Below are positions 2,728 through 59,932 of a stretch of 64,000 bases of DNA, piece after piece (position 1 is the first letter of the stretch; every line of letters begins with the position of its first letter). Under the pieces are notes generated by a model. That model was not told the DNA's origin and made no database searches. It saw nothing but the letters and a program-made list of their open reading frames with translations. The translations under genes and the position numbers were made by a program. This DNA is from Rhodococcus sp. UNC23MFCrub1.1 (GTDB taxonomy: Bacteria > Actinomycetota > Actinomycetes > Mycobacteriales > Mycobacteriaceae), in the NCBI RefSeq assembly GCF_000686025.1, contig NZ_JMLQ01000001.1:558001-622000 (forward strand), written 5' to 3'.

Positions 2728-3873
2728 TCAGCGCGCGAACAGCCGGTCGACGAACGCGATCGCATCGGGCTGCGAGTCACGGAACGTCTGACTGTGGTCG
2801 CCCGGGTAGGTCCGGAAGGTCAGCGGTTCGCCGTTGGCCGTCATGGCCGCCGCGAGCGACAGGGCGGACGGTGCCGGCACATCGACGTCCCGCAGACCCT
2901 GGCCGATGAAGACGGGACGGTCGTACCCGGAGGTGGGCACACCCATGTAGTCGTTCAGCAGTCCGTACACGTTCGGGATCTGCGCCAACGGCCGCGAGAA
3001 CATGTCGCCGAGTCGCAGCCCGGACACCGCATCGTGGAACGGGTTCGCGCACTGCGTCTCGGCGGTGTCCACCCACTGCCGGCCGAGCGGAGTCAGGTAC
3101 GAGTTCAGATCGATCTCGGGATGGGCGGCCCGCAACCCCGCCAGAATGTAGAAGACGTACGACGTCAGACCGTCCGGAATCGCGACGGGCGGGACTCCGG
3201 GCCCGAGCGGAAGCAGAACGAGTTCGATGTTGGCGGGCACGCCGGTCCCGACGGCGCCGAGGTAGTCCAGGCCGTCGCCGCCGTACTCGGTGGCGTACCG
3301 CGCGGTCGTCACCGCGGCGCCGCCGCCCTGGGACTGGCCGATCGCGACCCATCGATTCGACAGCGTCGGCTCCAGTTCCCTTGCAGCAGCGACACTGTCG
3401 ACGACGCTGTGCGCCTGCACCTTGCCGTCCAGGTACGGCATCACTCCGGGGGTACCGAGACCCACGTAGTCCGTGGCGACGATCGCGTAGCCGCGGTTCA
3501 GCCACGTCTGGAGGTACGGGAAGTCGCGGTCCGGCAACGTGGGGCCGACGACCGACGGAGCGCAGTCGTCGCCGAGCCCGGACGTGCCGTGGGCCCACGC
3601 GATGACAGGCCAGCCACCTTCGGGCGCCTCGCCGGGCGGCAGATGGACGCCACCGGTACTCAGGGCCGGCTCGTTCTGCGAGCCCACCGACCAGTAGGTG
3701 ATGCGCCGGGCGTCGACACTTCCCGGAATCGGGGCCGGTGACGCTGTCGATCCGACGAGAGTGCCCGGATCACGGTCCTGCGCCTGCGCCACACCCGTGA
3801 GGGTCAGCGCGACGGACGTCGTGGCGGTCAGGGTCACCAAGGCGCGCAGCAGGCGGCGGGAGCGGTTCGGCAC
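2728..3873 (-). CDS. Secreted lipase, LIP family (PF03583 type)
   Basis: Predicted secreted alpha/beta hydrolase of about 381 aa. From GTG 3873 the N-terminus is NRSRRLL, a hydrophobic stretch and an AQAQD-type signal peptidase site. GTG 3897 is an alternative start; the long open frame upstream of both is unlikely. Catalytic elements visible are the nucleophile elbow GQSQGGG and a late histidine in GDHSQ. The stretch [18 protein letters not shown] and the [11 protein letters not shown] motif are typical of bacterial secretory lipases (Candida LipA-like). A paralogue lies at 18753-19958. It probably releases fatty acids from extracellular acylglycerols or esters. It is divergent from the SOS-type gene at 3947, so the LexA box at 3910-3925 may overlap its promoter. 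Confidence 0.82.
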
Positions 3874-3909
3874 GGCGTCACCGTACCGCTCCGGCACCGG
3901 ATTCCGGAC

Positions 3910-3938
3910 TAGAACATACGTTCGATCACGGCTACGCT
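3910..3938 (+). promoter_or_regulatory. LexA (SOS) box and -10 element
   Basis: Bases 3910-3925 read TAGAAC-ATAC-GTTCGA, one mismatch from the actinobacterial LexA palindrome TCGAAC-N4-GTTCGA. Seven bases later TACGCT (3933-3938) is a plausible -10 hexamer, which places transcription start at or just before the ATG at 3947. Repressor bound here would cover the -35 region. The divergent lipase gene starts 36-bp beyond the box on the other strand and could also be affected. Confidence 0.8.
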
Positions 3939-3946
3939 CTTCAGTC

Positions 3947-4186
3947 ATGGACGAGGTGGGTGCGACGCAGAGTTCGGTGAACGACAAGGTGCTCGAGCTG
4001 CGCGCGGTCGCGGACGAGCTCCGGGCGCTCGACGACCACCGAGTGGCCCTCGGCGACAAGCTGGTGGACCTCGAACACTGGTTCCGACGGGTGGGGTGCC
4101 TGGAGTTGTCCGACCACGCGCTCGACGTCTTCGTCTCCCGCTACGTGGGCCGGGTCTTCGAGCTGGCGGACGGCCTACGCGAGTAG
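3947..4186 (+). CDS. Small SOS-controlled protein of unknown function
   Basis: 79-aa acidic protein, no recognised family. Residues about 10-50 look like a charged amphipathic helix rich in L, E, D and R (EVGATQSS then repeated leucine/acid spacing) and may be a coiled coil. A second helical part contains HWFRRVGCLELSD. No signal peptide or membrane segment is visible. The open frame extends upstream, but I place the start at ATG 3947 because the -10 element at 3933-3938 would leave almost no leader, giving a leaderless mRNA. The LexA box upstream predicts induction by DNA damage. It precedes a second LexA-controlled gene (4594) by about 400 bp. Its function could be checkpoint- or repair-related, but nothing in the sequence shows this. 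Confidence 0.7.
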   Translation: MDEVGATQSSVNDKVLELRAVADELRALDDHRVALGDKLVDLEHWFRRVGCLELSDHALDVFVSRYVGRVFELADGLRE

Positions 4187-4360
4187 CCGTGACCTCGCGT
4201 CACACTCAGTTGTGACCGCCGTCGCCCCGATCGGCACCACGTGGGGTGCCCCTCATTCCGGTGGAAACCACCTCGCAGCGGGCAATCATGGAGCGCGGCG
4301 GGACACGCTCCCGCCGGGGCCGGTCAGGGGAACCGACCTCAGCACGATCGGAGGAAACAC

Positions 4361-4477
4361 ATGATGATCACACTGACACTCGTCGGCGCGGCAGCACTCG
4401 CGGTCGCACTGTTGTCCGGCGGACGCGACCTGGACTTCCGGGGACGCCAGATGTCGCACAGCTACCGTTCGCGCTGA
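4361..4477 (+). CDS. 38-aa membrane peptide
   Basis: Very short gene with an ideal ribosome binding site: GGAGG at 4350-4354 followed by ATG at 4361. The product MMITLTLVGAAALAVALL has one hydrophobic segment (residues about 2-19) followed by a basic, arginine-rich tail ending SHSYRSR. It would be a single-pass membrane or holin-like microprotein, or an uncleaved signal-like peptide. A perfect 13-bp hairpin follows 21 bases after the stop, so the gene is a separate transcription unit between the two LexA-controlled genes. I do not recognise a family. The strong RBS, the terminator and the lack of a better reading frame support it as real. Confidence 0.6.
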   Translation: MMITLTLVGAAALAVALLSGGRDLDFRGRQMSHSYRSR

Positions 4478-4498
4478 CACCGACGCACATCGACGACT

Positions 4499-4526
4499 GC
4501 CCACCGTTCACCTGTGAACGGTGGGC
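4499..4526 (+). terminator. Hairpin terminator
   Basis: GCCCACCGTTCAC (4499-4511) pairs perfectly with GTGAACGGTGGGC (4514-4526) across a 2-base CT centre, followed by AGTTCTCT. It lies after the 38-aa peptide gene and before the SOS promoter of the HNH gene, insulating the two. Confidence 0.75.
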
Positions 4527-4558
4527 AGTTCTCTGTCCATATTCGGTGACATCTACTA

Positions 4559-4587
4559 TCGAACATATGTTCTAATCCATGTAGTCT
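4559..4587 (+). promoter_or_regulatory. LexA (SOS) box and -10 element
   Basis: Bases 4559-4574 read TCGAAC-ATAT-GTTCTA, one mismatch from the LexA palindrome. Exactly seven bases downstream lies TAGTCT (4582-4587), a good -10, and the ATG follows six bases after that, again implying a leaderless transcript. The geometry is the same as at 3910-3938. Confidence 0.88.
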
Positions 4588-4593
4588 GAGGTC

Positions 4594-6144
4594 ATGGAAT
4601 CGGGGGATCCAGGGTCGGCCTGGCAGGTGCAGATGGGCCGACGTGTCGGCGCGCTGCCTGCTGTGGCCGCACCTGTCGACGATCCCCGCGTGTGCGCGCT
4701 ACTCGCCCAGCTCGGCTCCGCGGTCGAGGGCATCGCCATGCTCGACGCGTCGACGCTCACCAGCGAGGACCGACTGGCGCTGGTCTGCGGGGCCGAGAAC
4801 ACCCGGCGCCTGCTCACCGGCGCGTCACACACCTGGCTCAACGGCCTGGTGGCCGGCTCGGGATTCGACTCTGTGATCGGTGCGATCGGCGCGAGCGGTG
4901 TTCCGCACGCACTGGCGCACATGCTGCGCATCACCACGGCTGCCGCGGCATCCCGCCTTGCCGTGGCACGCGATCTCGGCACCGGAACGACCATGACGGG
5001 TGAGACGCTCGATCCGCCGTTGACCCACACGGCCGCGGCAGCGCGGGACGGCGCGCTGGCCGACGCACACGTCTCGATCATCCGCTCGTTCCTGAAGAAG
5101 CTCCCTCACGCCGTCGATGCCGAGACGCGCGACGCCGCCGAGCAGACTCTCGCCGACCTTGCGCGCACGGTCGGACCGGAGGAGCTCACGGCCATCGCGA
5201 CGCGCCTCACCGAATACCTCGATCCCGACGGAGCGGAGCCCGACGATCGCGACCGCGCCAGGAAGCGCTTCTTCGAGATCGACCCCCAGGGCCCCGATTC
5301 GATGTCGACCGGCCGCTTCTGCGTCGACCCGGTGCTGCGCGCCCTCCTCGACGCGTTCCTCGCCAAATTCGCGGCACCCGGAACGAACGCTCCCGACGGT
5401 TCAGTCGATCTCGACGCCCCGCCCGCGAGCGATGACACGACCCCCACCGACGCTGTCCCGTCCGGCGACGCAGGACAGCCGGCCGCGGCGGAGGAGTCGG
5501 GCGACCGGGAGGCCGAGTGGGACCACCGCACCCCCGGCCAGCGCAATCACGATGCACTGACCTACCTCCTGAAGGACGTGCTGGCCTCGGGTCGACACGG
5601 ACAGCATCGTGGTCTGCCCCTGTCCGTCGTCGTGTCGGTGTCACTCGACCAGCTCACCACCGCAGCGGGTCTCGGGCTCACCGCCACCGGATCCACAATG
5701 CCCGTGGCAGACGTGGTGCGCATGGCGGCCGAGGCGCACCACTACCTCCGCGTCTTCGACGGGGCCACCGGCAGCACGCTGCACTTCGCCCGAGCCCGCC
5801 GGTGCGCGAGCACCGACCAGCGGCTCGCCCTGTTCGCCCGCGACCGCGGCTGCACCGGGCCGGGATGCTCGGCGCCCGCGTCACGGTGCGAGGCCCACCA
5901 TGTCGACGACTGGGCGGCGGGCGGCCTCACCGACATCGACGATCTCGCGCTGGCGTGCGACGTCCACCATCCGCTCGTCGGCGAACGTGCCGGCCAGTGG
6001 GCCACCAGCACCGCTCCCCCGAGTCATCCGTACCCGGGAACAGTGCTGTGGCATCCGCCTGCCGTCATCGACGAGGGTCGGCACGGCATCCCGAACCACC
6101 TGAACTTCCCCGAACGGCACCTCGCACCGCCGCCGGACGACTGA
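4594..6144 (+). CDS. 13E12-family DUF222/HNH endonuclease-like protein
   Basis: 516-aa protein with an N-terminal DUF222 region (about residues 25-330, alanine-rich helices), an acidic/proline-rich linker (about 265-310) and a C-terminal HNH zinc-finger nuclease motif at about residues 412-455. In the HNH part, paired cysteines (RGCTGPGC), the catalytic EAHHVDDW and a final CDVHHPLV are intact. These proteins are abundant in actinobacteria, and several 13E12 members in M. tuberculosis are LexA-controlled, which agrees with the strong SOS box directly upstream. ATG 4594 is chosen because it sits at the predicted transcription start. DNA cleavage or recombination during damage is inferred; the substrate is unknown. 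A second, divergent copy lies at 43800-45248. The gene is convergent with the hydrolase at 6207. Confidence 0.9.
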   Translation: MESGDPGSAWQVQMGRRVGALPAVAAPVDDPRVCALLAQLGSAVEGIAMLDASTLTSEDRLALVCGAENTRRLLTGASHTWLNGLVAGSGFDSVIGAIGASGVPHALAHMLRITTAAAASRLAVARDLGTGTTMTGETLDPPLTHTAAAARDGALADAHVSIIRSFLKKLPHAVDAETRDAAEQTLADLARTVGPEELTAIATRLTEYLDPDGAEPDDRDRARKRFFEIDPQGPDSMSTGRFCVDPVLRALLDAFLAKFAAPGTNAPDGSVDLDAPPASDDTTPTDAVPSGDAGQPAAAEESGDREAEWDHRTPGQRNHDALTYLLKDVLASGRHGQHRGLPLSVVVSVSLDQLTTAAGLGLTATGSTMPVADVVRMAAEAHHYLRVFDGATGSTLHFARARRCASTDQRLALFARDRGCTGPGCSAPASRCEAHHVDDWAAGGLTDIDDLALACDVHHPLVGERAGQWATSTAPPSHPYPGTVLWHPPAVIDEGRHGIPNHLNFPERHLAPPPDD

Positions 6145-6206: not shown

Positions 6207-7352
6207 TCAGCCGGAATGTTCCGCCGTGAATTCCGTGATCTCGGCGAGCGCAGGCTTGGGCGAGAAATCGCGGCGCACCATTCCGAAATTCTGCTCCGTG
6301 TCGGACTCGTCGCTGCCCGAGTCACGCATGCTGTAGACGTACGCGGGCCCGAGCCAGGAATTGCCGAGAAGGGCATTGAGCATGATGCCGATGGACTCGG
6401 CCTGCCCCTCCTCGCTCATGGCATTCGCGTTCGTTCCCGTGGGTGCGCCCATCTCGGTGATCCAGATCTGCTTGTCGCCGTCACCCTCGGCACTCATGAC
6501 ATCGTGCATCGACCACATCGCCATCGCCGTGTTCCATGCCGCCGTCGACAGATCGTTCGGAAGGAACGGCCACGTGTACGGGTGAACGTTGAAGGCATCG
6601 AAATAACGATTCGCTCCGAGGGTGTAGAGCGACGAGAGGAAAGCGGTCGGCGAGATGTTGGTGCCGTTGTTCACCGCGGGCGCCATACCGCCGGCGAGCA
6701 CCAGCGCCTCCGGTTGCACCTTCTTGATGGCGCGGTACGTCGCGCGCAGCATCAGCGCGTACACCGTCGGGTCGGGCAGCGGCGTGAAGTAGGTGGTGAT
6801 GTTCGGCTCGTTCCACACCTCCCACAACACGATTCGGTCGCGGTACCGCTGCGCGGCGAGTGCCGCGAAGGCCGCGAACGCGTCCGGACTCGCCGGCCGG
6901 GCGTAGGGCTGATCCCGAGCCGTCGCCACACGCGCCCAGGCAGGTGCGTAGGTCACGATGGCGTACGGGCACATACCCCGAGCGACGATGGCGTCGACCA
7001 CTCTGTCCGTCGACGACCAGTCGCGCCGACCGGGCTGCGGCTCCACCACCGACCAGTCGATGTCGATGCGCACCGAGAACATGCCCGCATTCTTCGCGAT
7101 GTCGAGTTCGCGTCCGAGGTCCTCGTCCGACAGGAATCCGAAGGAGCCGCCGGGTGATCCGCCCACCCGGACGCCGTCGGACTCCGCGACGCACCGCGGT
7201 ACCTCGCCCGACGGAGCGCCGGATGCCGGTGCCGGCACACCGACGAGAACGAGAAGGACAGCGGCACCAGACACGCTGCATCGCCGGAGAAACCCGGCAC
7301 CGGCTCCGCGCCGAGTCGGCCTCGAACGCGAAACAGACCGATCGGTGAGCAC
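6207..7352 (-). CDS. Secreted glycoside hydrolase, clan A (GH5/GH39-like)
   Basis: 381-aa protein with an arginine-rich N-terminus, a signal peptide (hydrophobic residues about 27-45) and a TIM-barrel glycosidase. The clan GH-A pair is visible: WNEP with the acid/base Glu182, and WITEMG with the nucleophile Glu300. The barrel begins with a segment on strand-1 order (FSVRIDIDWSVVEP), as in family 39/5 enzymes. It should cut an extracellular beta-linked glycan. It lies just upstream of the capsule/EPS genes and is transcribed away from them, so trimming of that same polysaccharide is a reasonable inference. ATG 7352 is the first in-frame start giving a usable signal peptide; a start a few codons in is possible. 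Confidence 0.85.
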   Translation of the reverse strand: MLTDRSVSRSRPTRRGAGAGFLRRCSVSGAAVLLVLVGVPAPASGAPSGEVPRCVAESDGVRVGGSPGGSFGFLSDEDLGRELDIAKNAGMFSVRIDIDWSVVEPQPGRRDWSSTDRVVDAIVARGMCPYAIVTYAPAWARVATARDQPYARPASPDAFAAFAALAAQRYRDRIVLWEVWNEPNITTYFTPLPDPTVYALMLRATYRAIKKVQPEALVLAGGMAPAVNNGTNISPTAFLSSLYTLGANRYFDAFNVHPYTWPFLPNDLSTAAWNTAMAMWSMHDVMSAEGDGDKQIWITEMGAPTGTNANAMSEEGQAESIGIMLNALLGNSWLGPAYVYSMRDSGSDESDTEQNFGMVRRDFSPKPALAEITEFTAEHSG

Positions 7353-43799: not shown

Positions 43800-45248
43800 T
43801 CACTCGCCGGGTGCGGTGAAGTAGTCGGTGCCGTGCGAGTCGCGGACATGGACGATCCCGTCCCGGAGCATGCGGTGGTGCCACTGCCGCCGGGTCTTCA
43901 GGCCGTGGTGCCGACGGCACAGCGGCGCGAGGTTGCCGGTGACGGTCCAGCCGCCTCTCTCCGGGTCGGTGTGGTCGAACGGGACGACGTGGTCGAGGTC
44001 GCAGTCTTCGCTGGGCACAGCACATCCCGGATGGATGCATGTCGGATACAGCGCTGTCACCAGCGACGTGATCGCCTCGGACGGCCGGTACGTCAACGCC
44101 CCGGCCGGGGGTACGGCGAATCCCCCATGTCCGTCGGGGTCGGCGACGGCACGGTCCACCGCCGATGGTGCGAGCGCGCGGAGATAGTCGACCTGCTCCC
44201 TGGCTTTTCGGGCTGTCGTGCTGCCCAGTTTCCCCGTGGTCGGTGTCCACCCTGCGGGCATACGGCGGGTGCGGCGGACTTCCCGACCCGTGATCGGCAC
44301 AGGCGGGTCGGGGACGGTGGGTGGGTCGTGTTCCGGGCATCGGCAGCTGCATCCCGCCCGCGGTTCAGTTCCGCGGGCTGCGGTGATGAGTGCTTGCCAC
44401 GTCGCATCCCCGGCGATTCTCCGGGCCACGTCCGCAGGAACCGGACCCCAACCCACGAGATGCCCCGGCTCCCCCGCCAACCCCGCCGCCGTGGCCGCAT
44501 CGAGCACGATCACCGCAGTGGCCTCGGTACGGGCGACCGTCTCCCGCTGTTCGCAGTCCTGGCCGGCACACTCACACGCGACAGCTCTGCCGGCGAGCAC
44601 CGCGTGCGCTGCATCGAACAACCGCGCGGACAGCGGCCGCGGATCCGTCGCGCACACCCCACGCGCCGCCGACACGATCACCCGCCACATCGCCGCGACC
44701 TGCTCCGCCGAACCACGAATCGTCAGCTCGGCCTGACCGCGCGGGAGCTTCCGCACCGTTGCCGACCGCTCCCGCGTCGCCCGTTCACGCGCTTCCCGGT
44801 GCCACTGCGCGTCGAACTCCGCGAGGATCCGGTCGACCGCCGCTGCCACCGCACCCGGAGTGCACCTCGACGCGGCAGCGATCACCCGCTGCAGCAGCGC
44901 TTCGGTGGCGTTCGGAACCCCGGCCACCGACCTGCACACCGTCCGGAACGCCGCATACGCCAACCGGCCCGCATCGAACGCCTCCGCCACCGCAGGATGC
45001 GCGGTGCGGGTCAGGAACAACCACTCGGCCACCGTGCGCGTCGACACCGCCAACGCCGCCGCGACCTCCGCCACCGCACAGGTCTCAGCAGCTTCCGCGT
45101 CGAACACCCCACCCGGACCGAGCAAGGCCGGCCGGCGCGACGACTCCTGCACGTACGCACACGACGCCGACACGGTCCGGGCGAACGACGCTTGAGCGTC
45201 GACCTTCGCCGACACCAACACATCCACCGAAACCTCTGCGTCGTACAC
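43800..45248 (-). CDS. Second 13E12-family DUF222/HNH protein
   Basis: 482-aa relative of the protein at 4594. It has an alanine-rich DUF222 region with a helical core around EALLQRVIAAASRCTPGAV, a proline-rich linker (TVPDPPVPITG), and an HNH finger near residues 400-445 (CIHPGCAVPSEDCDLDHVVPFDH, then NLAPLCRRHHGLK). The start is GTG 45248, with GGGGGG-TGAATTC giving a good RBS. The open frame continues upstream for over 140 codons, but without a better start. No LexA box is present in the 250 bp upstream, unlike the copy at 4594. The two copies differ clearly, which argues for separate acquisition. Confidence 0.85.
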   Translation of the reverse strand: MYDAEVSVDVLVSAKVDAQASFARTVSASCAYVQESSRRPALLGPGGVFDAEAAETCAVAEVAAALAVSTRTVAEWLFLTRTAHPAVAEAFDAGRLAYAAFRTVCRSVAGVPNATEALLQRVIAAASRCTPGAVAAAVDRILAEFDAQWHREARERATRERSATVRKLPRGQAELTIRGSAEQVAAMWRVIVSAARGVCATDPRPLSARLFDAAHAVLAGRAVACECAGQDCEQRETVARTEATAVIVLDAATAAGLAGEPGHLVGWGPVPADVARRIAGDATWQALITAARGTEPRAGCSCRCPEHDPPTVPDPPVPITGREVRRTRRMPAGWTPTTGKLGSTTARKAREQVDYLRALAPSAVDRAVADPDGHGGFAVPPAGALTYRPSEAITSLVTALYPTCIHPGCAVPSEDCDLDHVVPFDHTDPERGGWTVTGNLAPLCRRHHGLKTRRQWHHRMLRDGIVHVRDSHGTDYFTAPGE

Positions 45249-45448
45249 GAATTCACCCCCCGGTGATGCCCCGATCAGACCGCCCCCCGACGACCTGAAC
45301 AGACAGTAACCCACCCCACCGACACACTTTCGGGTCACGCCGTCGGATGCGCGCTCCAGCTCCTCGATCCGTTTCGGCCGTCGATACATCTGCGGACATT
45401 GAGCGCAGATCGCCTTTCCACCAACACATTCCGTGCCCGAGAACACGG

Positions 45449-45501: not shown

Positions 45502-46467
45502 TCAACTGGATGGGGGTGAGTGTGTTTCGGCCAGGACTTTCGCGAGTTGGCTGATGCGTGTGCGGGCTGCGTCTGGGGCGAGGACCTCGATGTGGTCGCC
45601 GAATTGCAGCAGTTGACGCACCGACTCGATGTCGGGGTAGCCGACGACGACGATGCATGTTCCGTTCTCCGGATCGGATACATCGTGGATGCGTGTCCCG
45701 AGGATGCGCCGCGCCAAGTCGAGGCCGTGTTCCGGCAGGCGAAAGGTCACGCTCACATGACCTCGACCCTCGGTGCGGTCCTTCAACGCGGCCCATGTGG
45801 TGCGGAGGGTTTCTCCGGGTCGGAGAGAGACTGGCGCGTCGAGTTGTTCGAAAGCCGCGAGTCGGTCCAGAGAGAACAGTCGTCCATCTCCTCGGTGGTC
45901 GGCGACGAGGTACCAGCGGCCGGACTTCGCCACGATCCCGTACGGGTCGACCACACGTGTCGAGGCCTCACTCTCGGCGCTCCGCCGGTATCGGATTCGC
46001 AATCGGCGTCGGTCCTGCAGGGCCGATGCCAGATCGGCGACGTCGACCGCTGCTTCTGAATCGGCAAACCACGGGGTGCTGTCCACCAGCACGAGGTCCG
46101 CCAGTCGCAATGGGCTCGTGCCCGTGGATGTCGCGGCCTGGCGGGCGGCGATCTTGCGTGCTGCCGACTCCCACATCGCCGACAAGCCCATGCGCTCACG
46201 TTGCGTGCTGTCCAGACCCGCCAGAGAAAGGGCTTCCAACTCCGGTGGTTCCAGGTGGGACGCGTTGAGCCGCGCACCGGGGAGCAGGACGATTCCACCG
46301 CTGCGGCCACGTTCGGCGTACACAGGCACTCCTGCTGCCGAGAGCGCCTCGACGTCCCGCAGCACGGTCCGCCGCGATACTTCCAGACGCGCGGCCAGCT
46401 CCGTGGTGGTGATGCGTTGGCGGGTCTGCAGCAACAGCAAGAGGTGCAGCAATCGGGCGGCCTTCAT
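45502..46467 (-). CDS. HTH-11/WYL-domain transcriptional regulator (YafY-like)
   Basis: 321-aa regulator. The winged HTH (residues about 3-55) contains LLLLLQTRQRITTTELAARL then EVSRRTVLRDVEALSAAGVPV. The WYL domain at about 125-200 (LRIRYRR, VDPYGIVAKSGRWYLVADH) has the characteristic GRWYLV motif that senses ligands, possibly nucleic acids. The WCX extension is at the C-terminus. ATG 46467 begins the MKAARLLHLL helix, so the extra 18 codons upstream are dropped. It is divergent from the VOC gene at 46561. The operator-like palindrome between them suggests that it controls this neighbour and itself. Confidence 0.9.
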   Translation of the reverse strand: MKAARLLHLLLLLQTRQRITTTELAARLEVSRRTVLRDVEALSAAGVPVYAERGRSGGIVLLPGARLNASHLEPPELEALSLAGLDSTQRERMGLSAMWESAARKIAARQAATSTGTSPLRLADLVLVDSTPWFADSEAAVDVADLASALQDRRRLRIRYRRSAESEASTRVVDPYGIVAKSGRWYLVADHRGDGRLFSLDRLAAFEQLDAPVSLRPGETLRTTWAALKDRTEGRGHVSVTFRLPEHGLDLARRILGTRIHDVSDPENGTCIVVVGYPDIESVRQLLQFGDHIEVLAPDAARTRISQLAKVLAETHSPPSS

Positions 46468-53480: not shown

Positions 53481-55940
53481 TCACAGCTTGGTCATCGGCA
53501 CTCCGCCGATGAGCATCATCTTCACGCGACCGGACGTGCCGAAGTCGATCAGCACCATCGCACGCTGACCTGATCCCTCGGACTCGACGACGGTCCCGAG
53601 ACCGTACTTGTCGTGGCTCACGCGATCACCCACGGCGAGCGTCAGGGTGTTGTTGGACCGGGCCTTGCCGAAGCTGGGTGTCGGGGTGGCCGACGGCGAC
53701 GACCCACCGGACCATCCACCACGGGGATTCGACGTCCAGTCGCGCTGGCGCCCCGAGCCACCACTGGAACCGAACCCGCTGCCGACGCCGGGATCCTCCC
53801 GTTTCCAGTCGATGAGATGCTGCGGAACCTCTTGCAGGAAGCGCGATTCGGGGTTGTTGATGGGCTGCCCCCACGCCGAGCGCATGATCGCGCGAGTGAG
53901 GTAGAGCCGGTGCCGCGCACGCGTGATGCCCACGTAGGCGAGTCGACGCTCCTCGGACAACTCCGCAGGATCACCGAGCGCTCGCATGTGCGGGAACTGG
54001 CCGTCCTCCCACCCGGTGACGAACACGACCGGGAACTCGAGCCCCTTGGCCGTGTGCAGCGTCATGAGCGTGACGACACCGTCGCCGTTGTCCGGGATCT
54101 GGTCGGTGTCGGCCACCAGCGAGACCCGCTCGAGGAAGGCGGCGAGCGAACCCGGCTCGGCCACACCGTCGGTGTCCTCTGGTTCTGCGGACGCGACGTC
54201 GAGGTCCGCGTTGATGTCGACCCCCACCTCGAGATCCTCGATGCCCTGAAGGTTGCGTGCGTCGGCACTGAACTCGCGGGCCACGCTGACCAGTTCGTTG
54301 AGGTTGTCGAGGCGAGCGCCGTCCTGGGGATCCGAGCTGGCCTCGAGTTCGGCGCGATACCGCGTGCGGTCGAGCACCGCCTCGACGATGTCGCCGATGT
54401 CCGCGACGTCGTTTCCGTCGGCATCGGTGGCGTTCATGGTGGCCCGCAGCTCGCCGATCATCTCCATGAACGACGCGATGGCGTTCTGCGCGCGCGTGTT
54501 GAGCAGCGCCACGGAGCCGGCCGCGGCATCGAGGAGCGCGGCGTTGAAGCTGATGTTCTTCCGCTCGGCGTGCACGGCGACACAGGCCTCGGCACGATCG
54601 CCGATGCCGCGGCGCGGGGTGTTGAGGATGCGCCGCATGCTCACCGTGTCGTCCGGATTGGCCAGCACGCGGAGGTACGCGACCACGTCGCGTACCTCCT
54701 TGCGCTCGTAGAAGCGCACACCGCCCACCACCTTGTAGGGCAGACCGAGGCGGATGAAGATCTCCTCGAGCGCGCGCGAGGAGTTGTTGGTCCGGTAGAA
54801 CACCGCGACGTCGGAGTACTTGTAGTCGGTGCCGTCGACCAGCCGATCGATCTCCGACGCCACGAACTTGGCCTCGTCGTGCTCGTTGTCCGCCACGTAG
54901 CCGATGATCGGATCGCCGTCGCCGGTGTCCGTCCACAGCCGCTTGTCACGACGGTTGGTGTTGCGCGCGATGACGGCGTTGGCTGCCGCCAGGATGGTCT
55001 GGGTGGACCGGTAGTTCTGCTCGAGCAGGATGGTCCGCGCATCCGGATAGTCGCGCTCGAACTCCTCGATGTTGCGGATGGTCGCGCCGCGGAACGCGTA
55101 GATCGACTGGTCCGCGTCGCCCACCACGCACAGTTCGCTCGGGGGAACTGCCGCGACCTCGCCCTCCGCCGTCGATCCGGTGCCCACCAACTCGCGCACC
55201 AGCATGTACTGCGCGTGGTTGGTGTCCTGGTACTCGTCGACGAGGACGTGGCGGAAGCGGCGCCGGTAGTACTCGGCGACGTCCGGATGGCTCTGCAGCA
55301 GTGCCACCGTCTCGCCGATGAGATCGTCGAAGTCGAACGCGTTGGCCGCCCGCAGACGCTGCTGGTAGTGGCCGTAGACCTTCGCGATGACGGCCGGCAG
55401 CTCGGCCGGCTCCTTCTCCGCGTCGGCGACGGCCTGGTCCGGATCGATCAGCTCGTTCTTCAGATTGGAGATCTGCGTCGCCAGCAGACGCGACGAGAAC
55501 TTCTTCGGATCGAGCTGCAGATCCTTGCCGATCATCGTGAGGAGCCGACGCGAGTCGTCCGCGTCGTAGATGGAGAAGTTCGAGTTGAGGCCGGGAAGCA
55601 GCGCCGCCTGGCTCCGGAGGATCCGCACGCAGCTCGAGTGGAACGTGCTCACCCACATGAAGTTGGCCCGCGGCCCGACCAACTGGACGACGCGTTCCCG
55701 CATCTCCGCCGCGGCCTTGTTGGTGAACGTGATCGCGAGGACCTGGCCGGGTGTGACATCTCTCTCCGCCAGGAGATACGCGATGCGACGGGTCAGCACC
55801 GCGGTCTTGCCCGAACCGGCGCCCGCCACGATGAGCAACGGTCCCCCCGAGTGCATCACTGCCTCGCGCTGCTGGGGATTGAGGCCCTCGAGGAGCTGGT
55901 CCGAGGACCTGGTGGCACGTGCGGGTGACTGTGTGTTCAT
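53481..55940 (-). CDS. uvrD1: ATP-dependent DNA helicase UvrD1/PcrA
   Basis: 819-aa SF1A helicase. Walker A AGAGSGKT (residues 39-46), motif II DEYQDTN, motif III GDADQSIYAFRGA, motif IV NYRST, motif V TLHTAKGLEFP and motif VI YVGITRARHRLYLT are all present. The C-terminus has a Gly/Ser-rich linker (about 700-745) and a Tudor-like domain (about 765-815, VSHDKYGLGTVVESEGSG) which in mycobacterial UvrD1 binds Ku/RNA polymerase. It works in nucleotide excision repair and replication. No LexA box was found upstream of it (about 300 bp). Confidence 0.96.
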   Translation of the reverse strand: MNTQSPARATRSSDQLLEGLNPQQREAVMHSGGPLLIVAGAGSGKTAVLTRRIAYLLAERDVTPGQVLAITFTNKAAAEMRERVVQLVGPRANFMWVSTFHSSCVRILRSQAALLPGLNSNFSIYDADDSRRLLTMIGKDLQLDPKKFSSRLLATQISNLKNELIDPDQAVADAEKEPAELPAVIAKVYGHYQQRLRAANAFDFDDLIGETVALLQSHPDVAEYYRRRFRHVLVDEYQDTNHAQYMLVRELVGTGSTAEGEVAAVPPSELCVVGDADQSIYAFRGATIRNIEEFERDYPDARTILLEQNYRSTQTILAAANAVIARNTNRRDKRLWTDTGDGDPIIGYVADNEHDEAKFVASEIDRLVDGTDYKYSDVAVFYRTNNSSRALEEIFIRLGLPYKVVGGVRFYERKEVRDVVAYLRVLANPDDTVSMRRILNTPRRGIGDRAEACVAVHAERKNISFNAALLDAAAGSVALLNTRAQNAIASFMEMIGELRATMNATDADGNDVADIGDIVEAVLDRTRYRAELEASSDPQDGARLDNLNELVSVAREFSADARNLQGIEDLEVGVDINADLDVASAEPEDTDGVAEPGSLAAFLERVSLVADTDQIPDNGDGVVTLMTLHTAKGLEFPVVFVTGWEDGQFPHMRALGDPAELSEERRLAYVGITRARHRLYLTRAIMRSAWGQPINNPESRFLQEVPQHLIDWKREDPGVGSGFGSSGGSGRQRDWTSNPRGGWSGGSSPSATPTPSFGKARSNNTLTLAVGDRVSHDKYGLGTVVESEGSGQRAMVLIDFGTSGRVKMMLIGGVPMTKL

Positions 55941-56193
55941 CGTCCGTCCAGATTACCGGCGGTCACCGACACCGACACCATCACTCGGGCCGTGGGCGCC
56001 GAATCCCTGTCGTGTCGGAGTTCTGCCGCTCGCCGTATCACGCCGATCTGCAATTGCTCCTTCTTTACGTGGGGAGTGACACGGGCATACTCTTGCCCGG
56101 GCTCGACCGGCGAACGGCATCACACCGACTGCACCCGACCGTAGTGACCAGGCGTTTCGTGACTTCCGCGGAAATTCGTGGAAATCGCGTAAC

Positions 56194-58288: not shown

Positions 58289-59932
58289 ATGAGCGCCGAC
58301 ATCACGAGCACCGAAGCCTGGACCGAGCTCGTCACGCATCACGAGGCCGTGGCCGATCGCCACCTCCGTGACTTCTTCGCCGACGATCCGTCGCGTGGGA
58401 GCGAGCTGACCGTCACCGCGGGCGACCTGTACATCGACTACAGCAAGCACCGGGTCGAGCGGCAGACGCTCGAACTGCTGCTCGACCTCGCACGCGCAGC
58501 GGACGTCACCGGGCGTCGGGACGCCATGTTCGCGGGCGAGCACATCAACACCTCCGAGAACCGGGCCGTGCTGCACACCGCGCTGCGTCTGCCGTCGGAC
58601 GCGTCACTCGAGGTCGACGGCCAGGACGTGGTGGCCGACGTGCACGAGGTCCTCACGCGGATGGGCGATTTCAGCGATCGAGTGCGATCCGGCGCGTGGA
58701 CCGGCGCCACCGGTGAGCGGATCCGCACCGTCGTCAACATCGGGATCGGCGGCTCCGACCTGGGTCCGGTGATGGTGTACCAGGCTCTGCGGCACTACGC
58801 CGACGCGGGCATCTCGGCGCGCTTCGTCTCGAACGTCGACCCGGCCGATCTCGTCGGCACCCTCGCCGACCTGGACCCGGCGTCGACGCTGTTCATCGTC
58901 GCCTCCAAGACCTTCGGCACACTCGAGACGCTGACCAACGCCACGGCCGCCCGGCGATGGCTCACGGCCGCACTCGGTGACGACGCCGTCGCCCAGCACT
59001 TCGTCGCGGTGTCCACCAATGCGGAGAAGGTGTCGAACTTCGGCATCGACACCGCGAACATGTTCGGCTTCTGGGACTGGGTCGGCGGCCGCTACTCGGT
59101 CGATTCCGCCATCGGTCTGTCGGTGATGCTCGCCGTCGGCCGCGAGGCGTTCGCGGACTTCCTCGAGGGCTTCCACCTGATCGACCAGCACTTCCGCGAG
59201 GCGCCGCTCGAGTCCAACGCGCCGATCCTGCTGGGCACGCTGGGCGTCTGGTACTCCAGCTTCTTCGGCGCGCAGTCCCGGGCGGTGCTGCCGTACTCGA
59301 ACGATCTGAACCGGTTCGCCGCCTACCTGCAGCAGCTCACCATGGAGTCGAACGGCAAGTCGGTGAGGGCCGACGGAACGCCCGTCACGACGGACACCGG
59401 CGAGATCTTCTGGGGCGAGCCCGGAACCAACGGCCAGCACGCCTTCTACCAATTGCTGCACCAGGGAACACGACTCGTGCCGGCGGACTTCATCGGCTTC
59501 GCCGAGCCGACGGACGATCTTCCCACCGCGGACGGCACGGGCAGCATGCACGACCTGCTCATGAGCAACTACTTCGCCCAGACCAAGGTGTTGGCCTTCG
59601 GCAAGACGGCGGAGGAGATCGCCGCCGAGGGCACGGACGCGGACATCGTGCCGCACAAGGTGATGCCGGGAAACCGCCCGTCGACGTCGATCCTCGCGCC
59701 GAAACTCACGCCTTCGGTGGTGGGTCAGCTCATCGCCCTCTACGAACATCAGGTCTTCGTCGAGGGCGTCATCTTCGGCATCGACTCGTTCGACCAGTGG
59801 GGAGTCGAGCTGGGCAAGACCCAGGCGCAGGAGCTGACGCCGGTGCTGACCGATGCGGACGGCCCGGGCGCGGACCTCGATTCGTCGACGAGTGCGCTGA
59901 TCGACTGGTACCGCAGCGAACGCGGACGCTGA
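58289..59932 (+). CDS. pgi: Glucose-6-phosphate isomerase
   Basis: 547-aa glycolytic isomerase. Signature [15 protein letters not shown] (residues about 150-165), [22 protein letters not shown], the catalytic Glu in MESNGKSV and the [18 protein letters not shown] His, with a Lys in the C-terminal LGKTQAQEL. It converts glucose-6-P to fructose-6-P and supplies the sugar precursors of the polysaccharide pathway and zwf. ATG 58289 is selected because the upstream open frame is a read of the gabD complement. It is a single gene. Confidence 0.97.

Follow-up and report, generated by a model that had tools for sequence, protein, structure and literature searches.

Two near-consensus LexA palindromes in a Rhodococcus genome probably serve two separately controlled, leaderless SOS genes

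In this work, we analyzed a stretch of 64,000 nucleotides (hereafter, the window) from Rhodococcus sp. UNC23MFCrub1.1 (contig NZ_JMLQ01000001.1, positions 558,001 to 622,000), in which two palindromes resembling the LexA-binding SOS box precede a gene for a 79-aa small protein and a gene for a DUF222 protein. Protein matches place the organism in the Rhodococcus / Rhodococcoides group. The two boxes lie about 650 bases apart, and each differs by one mismatch from TCGAACN4GTTCGA, given as the SOS box of M. tuberculosis in PMC4181829; the near-consensus palindromes claimed by an earlier note on this DNA are thereby confirmed. The same note had placed a −10 hexamer seven bases past each box and an ATG 6–8 bases further on, and the positions proved right: the gap from box to −10 is 7 nt in both units, with the ATG at 3947 (8 nt past the −10) in the first and at 4594 (6 nt past it) in the second. 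Judged by the distance between −10 and ATG, both genes are predicted to be leaderless. The features are as follows.

3910..3925, plus strand: LexA box 1, TAGAACATACGTTCGA, one mismatch; a box with at most one mismatch lies ahead of 19/19 close orthologues
3933..3938, plus strand: predicted −10 hexamer TACGCT, 7 nt past box 1
3947..4186, plus strand: gene for the 79-aa small protein, belonging to no family, predicted two-helix hairpin (AlphaFold mean pLDDT 89.5), predicted leaderless
4559..4574, plus strand: LexA box 2, TCGAACATATGTTCTA, one mismatch; G101, a genome of the same species, has the identical box
4582..4587, plus strand: predicted −10 hexamer TAGTCT, 7 nt past box 2, read from the sequence
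4594..6144, plus strand: gene for a 516-aa DUF222 protein (PF02720, E 1.2e-67) that matches HNH weakly at its C-terminal end; predicted leaderless

Probably, each palindrome is a LexA operator lying over the −35 region of its own predicted leaderless promoter, and the locus likely holds two separately controlled SOS genes and no conserved module. LexA sitting on each predicted operator would keep RNA polymerase away for as long as the DNA is undamaged and give way once damage occurs; we infer LexA binding, induction by damage, the start sites and the overlap with the −35 region from the sequence. The genome itself encodes LexA and RecA, each adjoined by a box with one mismatch.

The palindromes might also have arisen by chance or serve a different regulator. 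Boxes with at most one mismatch are found within long open frames as well, a third box of this kind lies in the window at 58470, and random sequences occasionally equal the window in box number. At up to two mismatches the window holds 10 boxes against a shuffle mean of 4.73, with 2 of 100 shuffles reaching 10; at up to one mismatch it holds 3 sites (6 when each strand is counted), whereas 60 first-order Markov sequences average 0.83, with at least one of them also at 6. Taken without their promoter context, the boxes are only moderately unusual. The whole arrangement, however (box, 7 nt, TANNNT, ATG 5–9 nt further on), occurs twice in the window and in none of the 60 Markov sequences, a box precedes the small gene in all 19 orthologues, and the same motif stands at lexA and recA, which makes an origin by chance or another regulator most improbable.

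For box 1, the two-operator interpretation is carried by conservation. Matches to the small protein at E ≤ 0.001 were obtained in 22 of the 101 genomes searched, every one of them within the genus. All 19 close orthologues (L037–L055, one per genome, 45–100% protein identity) bear an upstream box with at most one mismatch, followed by TANNNT at 7 nt in 18 promoters and at 8 nt in one, with none at the other gaps between 0 and 30. In loci L037–L041, the distance between −10 and ATG is 6–8 nt; in 13 of the 19 (L042–L054), the promoter geometry is kept and the leader begins with a strong hairpin containing GGGAAG, described below. By its conservation, box 1 is judged to be real, and the proposal of LexA operators over leaderless-looking promoters is supported by these 19 orthologues together with the boxes at the genome's own lexA and recA. 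In L037–L041, the box sits between the small gene and a divergent lipase-like gene (2728–3870, minus strand, in the window), an arrangement that would also suit chief control of the lipase-like gene, with the small gene as a bystander. This is very unlikely, since in the other 14 loci (L042–L055) the lipase gene is unmatched and the box still stands 7 or 8 nt from the −10 ahead of the small gene. On the lipase side of box 1, moreover, there is no TANNNT at a distance of 7 nt.

The small protein is modeled by AlphaFold as two long helices. It gave no Pfam match above the cut-off and none in NCBIfam, and comparison of the fold with the PDB produced nothing significant (top match E 4). With low confidence, the model suggests a binding partner or adaptor rather than an enzyme. 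The locus adds a conserved small gene with an SOS box.

The 7-nt gap is shared far beyond the two window genes. The pattern GNAC-N4-GTTCGA-N7-TANNNT gave 70 matches in 36 of the 37 genus genomes against 2 in a reversed control; chance may account for a small number of the 70. We read the downstream sequence at 40 of these sites apart from the small gene, and the open frames at 11; 15 of the 40 precede one and the same gene, with the ATG 6–7 nt past the −10; in L125, Pfam identifies the product of this gene as a 2OG-Fe(II) oxygenase. A gap of 7 nt sets the left half-site (TAGAAC or TCGAAC; for box 1, 3910–3915) 17 bp ahead of the −10, and 17 bp is the usual sigma-70 spacer between −35 and −10. 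The gap may therefore be fixed because the left half of the box occupies the −35 position. Judging from these sequences, promoters of the SOS type ahead of unrelated genes have the 7-nt gap as well, if not without exception, and the matched spacing, which to the earlier note suggested a module, does not link the two window genes. What emerges is a layout of SOS promoters that recurs across the Rhodococcus group, with a half-site at −35, 7 nt to the −10, and a leader that is either absent or structured.

The same note had taken the boxes as a sign that the small protein and an HNH nuclease work together in a single damage-response module. Indeed, the two genes are adjacent in both genomes of the species and share their promoter geometry. 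At this site, the DUF222 gene was found in this species only: its same-site orthologue is in G101 (same species, 99% identity), which gives 2 of 37 genus genomes, and the other genus matches are at most 56% identical among the matches listed. Among 19 loci, only the window's own has a DUF222 match within about 1.5 kb of the small gene, the 18 other close-orthologue genomes having none; the nearest, among the matches listed, lies about 2.9 kb off in G016 (14 matches). Moreover, in four relatives (L038–L041) the response-regulator gene, the lipase-like gene, box 1, the small gene and the glycosyl-hydrolase-like gene were all matched, whereas the DUF222 protein was not, and 27–73 nt separate the flanking matches. 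When the window was compared by blastn with L038 (relative G002), matches covered 3809–4478 and 6214–7348, with none between. The intergenic features concerned are these.

4361..4477, plus strand: 38-aa open reading frame (ORF) between the two genes; by tblastn, 82% identity in L038 and 20 residues matched in L039–L041
4479..6213, no strand assigned: segment with box 2 and the DUF222 gene; relative G002 lacks it here and has about 70 nt in its place
4496..4529, plus strand: 16-bp inverted repeat, terminator-like, between the small-protein unit and box 2, read from the sequence

Because the DUF222 gene is absent in four relatives that keep the same neighbours, it was most likely gained at this site together with box 2, and would have arrived with its own operator; its loss in four relatives would be a less simple alternative. 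The module idea was rejected on the DUF222 searches in 37 genomes and on synteny, and with the geometry recurring at unrelated genes, we consider it very unlikely.

Several observations weigh against our interpretation of two separate LexA-controlled leaderless promoters. The conservation of box 2 can be assessed in one species only (2 genomes) and is hence uninformative, and box 1, lying between divergent genes, could also act on the lipase-like gene. Among the 17 distant small-protein matches, the 11 that were read (L056–L066) have no box in the scanned region, and the close orthologue L055 is without the hairpin and probably not leaderless. A 7-nt gap was found at just 4 of 40 distinct boxes (at most one mismatch) read in the organism's own genome, many of them within open frames, and two of these four are the window's; the boxes at lexA, recA and ruvC (the last identified by eye) do not have it. 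The list of boxes for this genome is incomplete, one perfect box being missing from it. Finally, most of the DUF222 promoters read are built otherwise than box-7 nt-TANNNT.

The way in which DUF222 genes are wired was evaluated with the top match from each of 30 genomes, 28 of which were evaluable, two being without a 5′ end. A LexA box (up to two mismatches) was present at 27 of the 28 loci vs. 4 of 560 shuffles, and a PafBC-type motif (up to one mismatch) at 21 of 28 vs. 0 of 560. The consensus for PafBC / RecA-NDp promoters is tTGTCRgtg-8 nt-TannnT (PMC5656591), and genes with both LexA and PafBC elements are known, recA included (PMC8223512). All 21 loci with the motif carry a LexA box too, the motif following 2–4 nt after the box, and in this they resemble PafBC promoters. 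The remaining seven, which do not carry both elements, are the window gene, its G101 orthologue, L172 and L174–L177, although in L172 both were found when the region was set another way. The organism's own genome shows the same tendency: five of its seven DUF222 genes have a LexA box, and six have a PafBC-type motif (one at two mismatches), the sole gene without it being that at 4594. Unlike PafBC promoters, the sequence upstream of 4594 holds no motif within two mismatches, the closest having three. Because a LexA box stands here where most of the relatives read have their PafBC motif, the prediction for the window copy is a response through LexA/RecA only. DUF222 is a large family without a settled function; its genes are likely double-wired through LexA and PafBC, with the window gene as a LexA-only exception. 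Two neighbouring WYL-domain genes of the same genome (C3:474131 and C3:475123) are candidates for pafB and pafC, for which such a pair would be expected.

A second DUF222 gene lies in the window itself (43800–45325, minus strand), with a PafBC-type motif (45325, one mismatch) and without a LexA box; an AGG stands where a leaderless ATG would be expected past the −10. Close to it is a WYL-domain match (45850–46038, minus strand), PafB and PafC being WYL proteins. Another PafBC-type motif with one mismatch, at 55972 (minus strand), is found just ahead of a UvrD/PcrA-like helicase gene (53481–55940, named by eye).

The earlier note had called the product of the 4594 gene an HNH nuclease. An HNH match is present, and membership in DUF222 is certain from the profile score (PF02720, 228.8 bits vs. 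a cut-off of 24.4). The nuclease part fared less well: PF01844 (HNH) scores 17.1 bits, below its cut-off of 21.4, and the position of the HNH Asn holds Asp. The HNH motif consists of two His with an Asn between them, and an Asn is required for cleavage by M. smegmatis MSMEG_1275 (PMC9416677), which serves here as an HNH comparison. In a tally over 37 DUF222 loci (the window gene entered twice; six other loci were unmatched by the search expression), the 31 motif matches have Ser 18 times, Asp 5, Ala 3, Thr 3 and Tyr 2 at this position, and Asn never. The protein likely acts on DNA, and nuclease activity appears uncertain because the HNH Asn is replaced.

We take the 13E12 proteins to be DUF222 proteins. 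HNH/13E12 genes are counted in the M. tuberculosis LexA regulon (PMC4181829), five putative HNH endonucleases are given among RecA-dependent genes (PMC8151990), and the lexA mRNA is described as leaderless in PMC2897130. The window resembles the mycobacterial LexA regulon with its 13E12 genes in having a predicted operator of the TCGAACN4GTTCGA type and a DUF222 gene; it differs in the genus, in a box 2 placed at −35 without a PafBC motif, in the replaced HNH Asn, and in the family-less 79-aa gene.

The GGGAAG hairpin that opens the leaders of L042–L054 also follows SOS boxes elsewhere: the organism's own genome has three such elements (L072, L074, L077), one of them on the 3′ side of the RNase P RNA gene. 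At the predicted start of the transcript stands a stem of about 12 bp, an inner hairpin is optional, and the invariant GGGAAG comes just ahead of the closing strand. In an alignment of 19 elements, with the variable inner hairpin removed from 6, 11 of 13 stem pairs vary in both strands of the stem, pairing is kept in 95.1% of cells, and none of 500 shuffles reaches the observed covariation score; since the stem served in finding some of the aligned elements, this count leans towards the stem.

Two tests avoid this bias. A hairpin-only model (R2) gave 21 matches at E ≤ 0.1 in the 37 genomes, of which 15 were training sequences (12) or close copies (3); a LexA box stands upstream of 5 of the 6 non-training matches. 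Among weaker matches outside training (E 0.1–1, model R1), the box is present in 2 of 10. The pattern GTTCGA-N7-TANNNT-N16-46-GGGAAGC, which requires neither the stem nor the left half-box, occurred in 50 of 401 family genomes and 11 of 31 genera, with one match in the control. Of the 56 sites listed, 50 were read: 42, from 6 genera, have both a stem right past GGGAAG and a fitting left half-box, and 8 do not, while such a stem was found in 61 of 2460 shuffles. The same pattern hit at least 120 stretches in viral contigs, and among the 80 read (73 distinct sites), 16 have stem and left half-box.

In Rfam 15, searched with 10 loci at E ≤ 1, three matches appeared, of which none covers the hairpin in its own orientation; the weak match to CcsR1 in L042 is on the opposite strand (21.6 bits, threshold 65.3, E 0.37). 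Downstream of the element are genes for the small protein, a zinc-finger-like protein, a SAV_6107-like HEPN protein and a RelA/SpoT-like protein (by eye), some sites having no evident gene. As for structured 5′ leader RNAs and SOS-controlled small RNAs, a covarying hairpin stands at the predicted 5′ end with several unrelated genes behind it; unlike known leader RNAs, the element has no match above the Rfam threshold (10 loci), is linked to LexA promoters, and carries GGGAAG adjoining the closing strand. From these comparisons, the hairpin is likely a new SOS-linked RNA element, and our best guess is a damage-induced riboregulator. No description of a LexA-linked GGGAAG hairpin was found in titles and abstracts, which does not establish its absence from print. 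In L206 and L208, a PafBC-type motif, a LexA box and a GGGAAG hairpin share a single promoter-leader ahead of the SAV_6107-like HEPN gene.

The broader proposal is that in this lineage the SOS promoters drive the synthesis of a new type of structured RNA, which would act as a damage-induced riboregulator in hosts and their viruses alike; the leaderless promoters of the window would be the stripped-down form of these units. We give it even chances. Should the hairpin be confirmed, hosts and viruses would have an RNA control element in common in the transcripts that they make upon damage. For the zinc-finger-like protein, 39 plasmid records and 26 phage records gave matches. In nine regions read (first 420 nt scanned), GGGAAG past a box was found in none; a box but no GGGAAG stands in two plasmid regions, and GGGAAG but no box in two regions. 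Of three viral elements used in a DNA search of named phages, one gave two records of one phage, an 18% match over an annotated gene, and the other two gave no match there.

In L401 (G000 C1:824515) and in L398–L403, a small zinc-finger-like gene is preceded by an SOS leader with the hairpin loop GACCUUCCCUCG. This loop contains the complement of GGGAAG, and a leader with CUUCCN is present in 6 of the 37 genus genomes. Since some SOS leaders of the same cells hold CUUCCC in a loop, pairing between SOS transcripts is possible. The GGGAAG RNA next to rnpB (the RNase P RNA gene), taken from G005 as the query, gave just a 19-nt match over the box and weak matches in G034, where the loop is changed to CUUCCG, and a match over 85 of 94 nt in G015. 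The pairing of GGGAAG with CUUCCC loops is suggestive, being based on a single case (n = 1), and we do not claim it. A third type of SOS leader, GCCCCCGGAGTTGGC...GCGGAGCCACTTCGGGCGG, looks foldable as well and is found in L122, L127 and similar loci, standing in L122 ahead of a zinc-finger-like gene.

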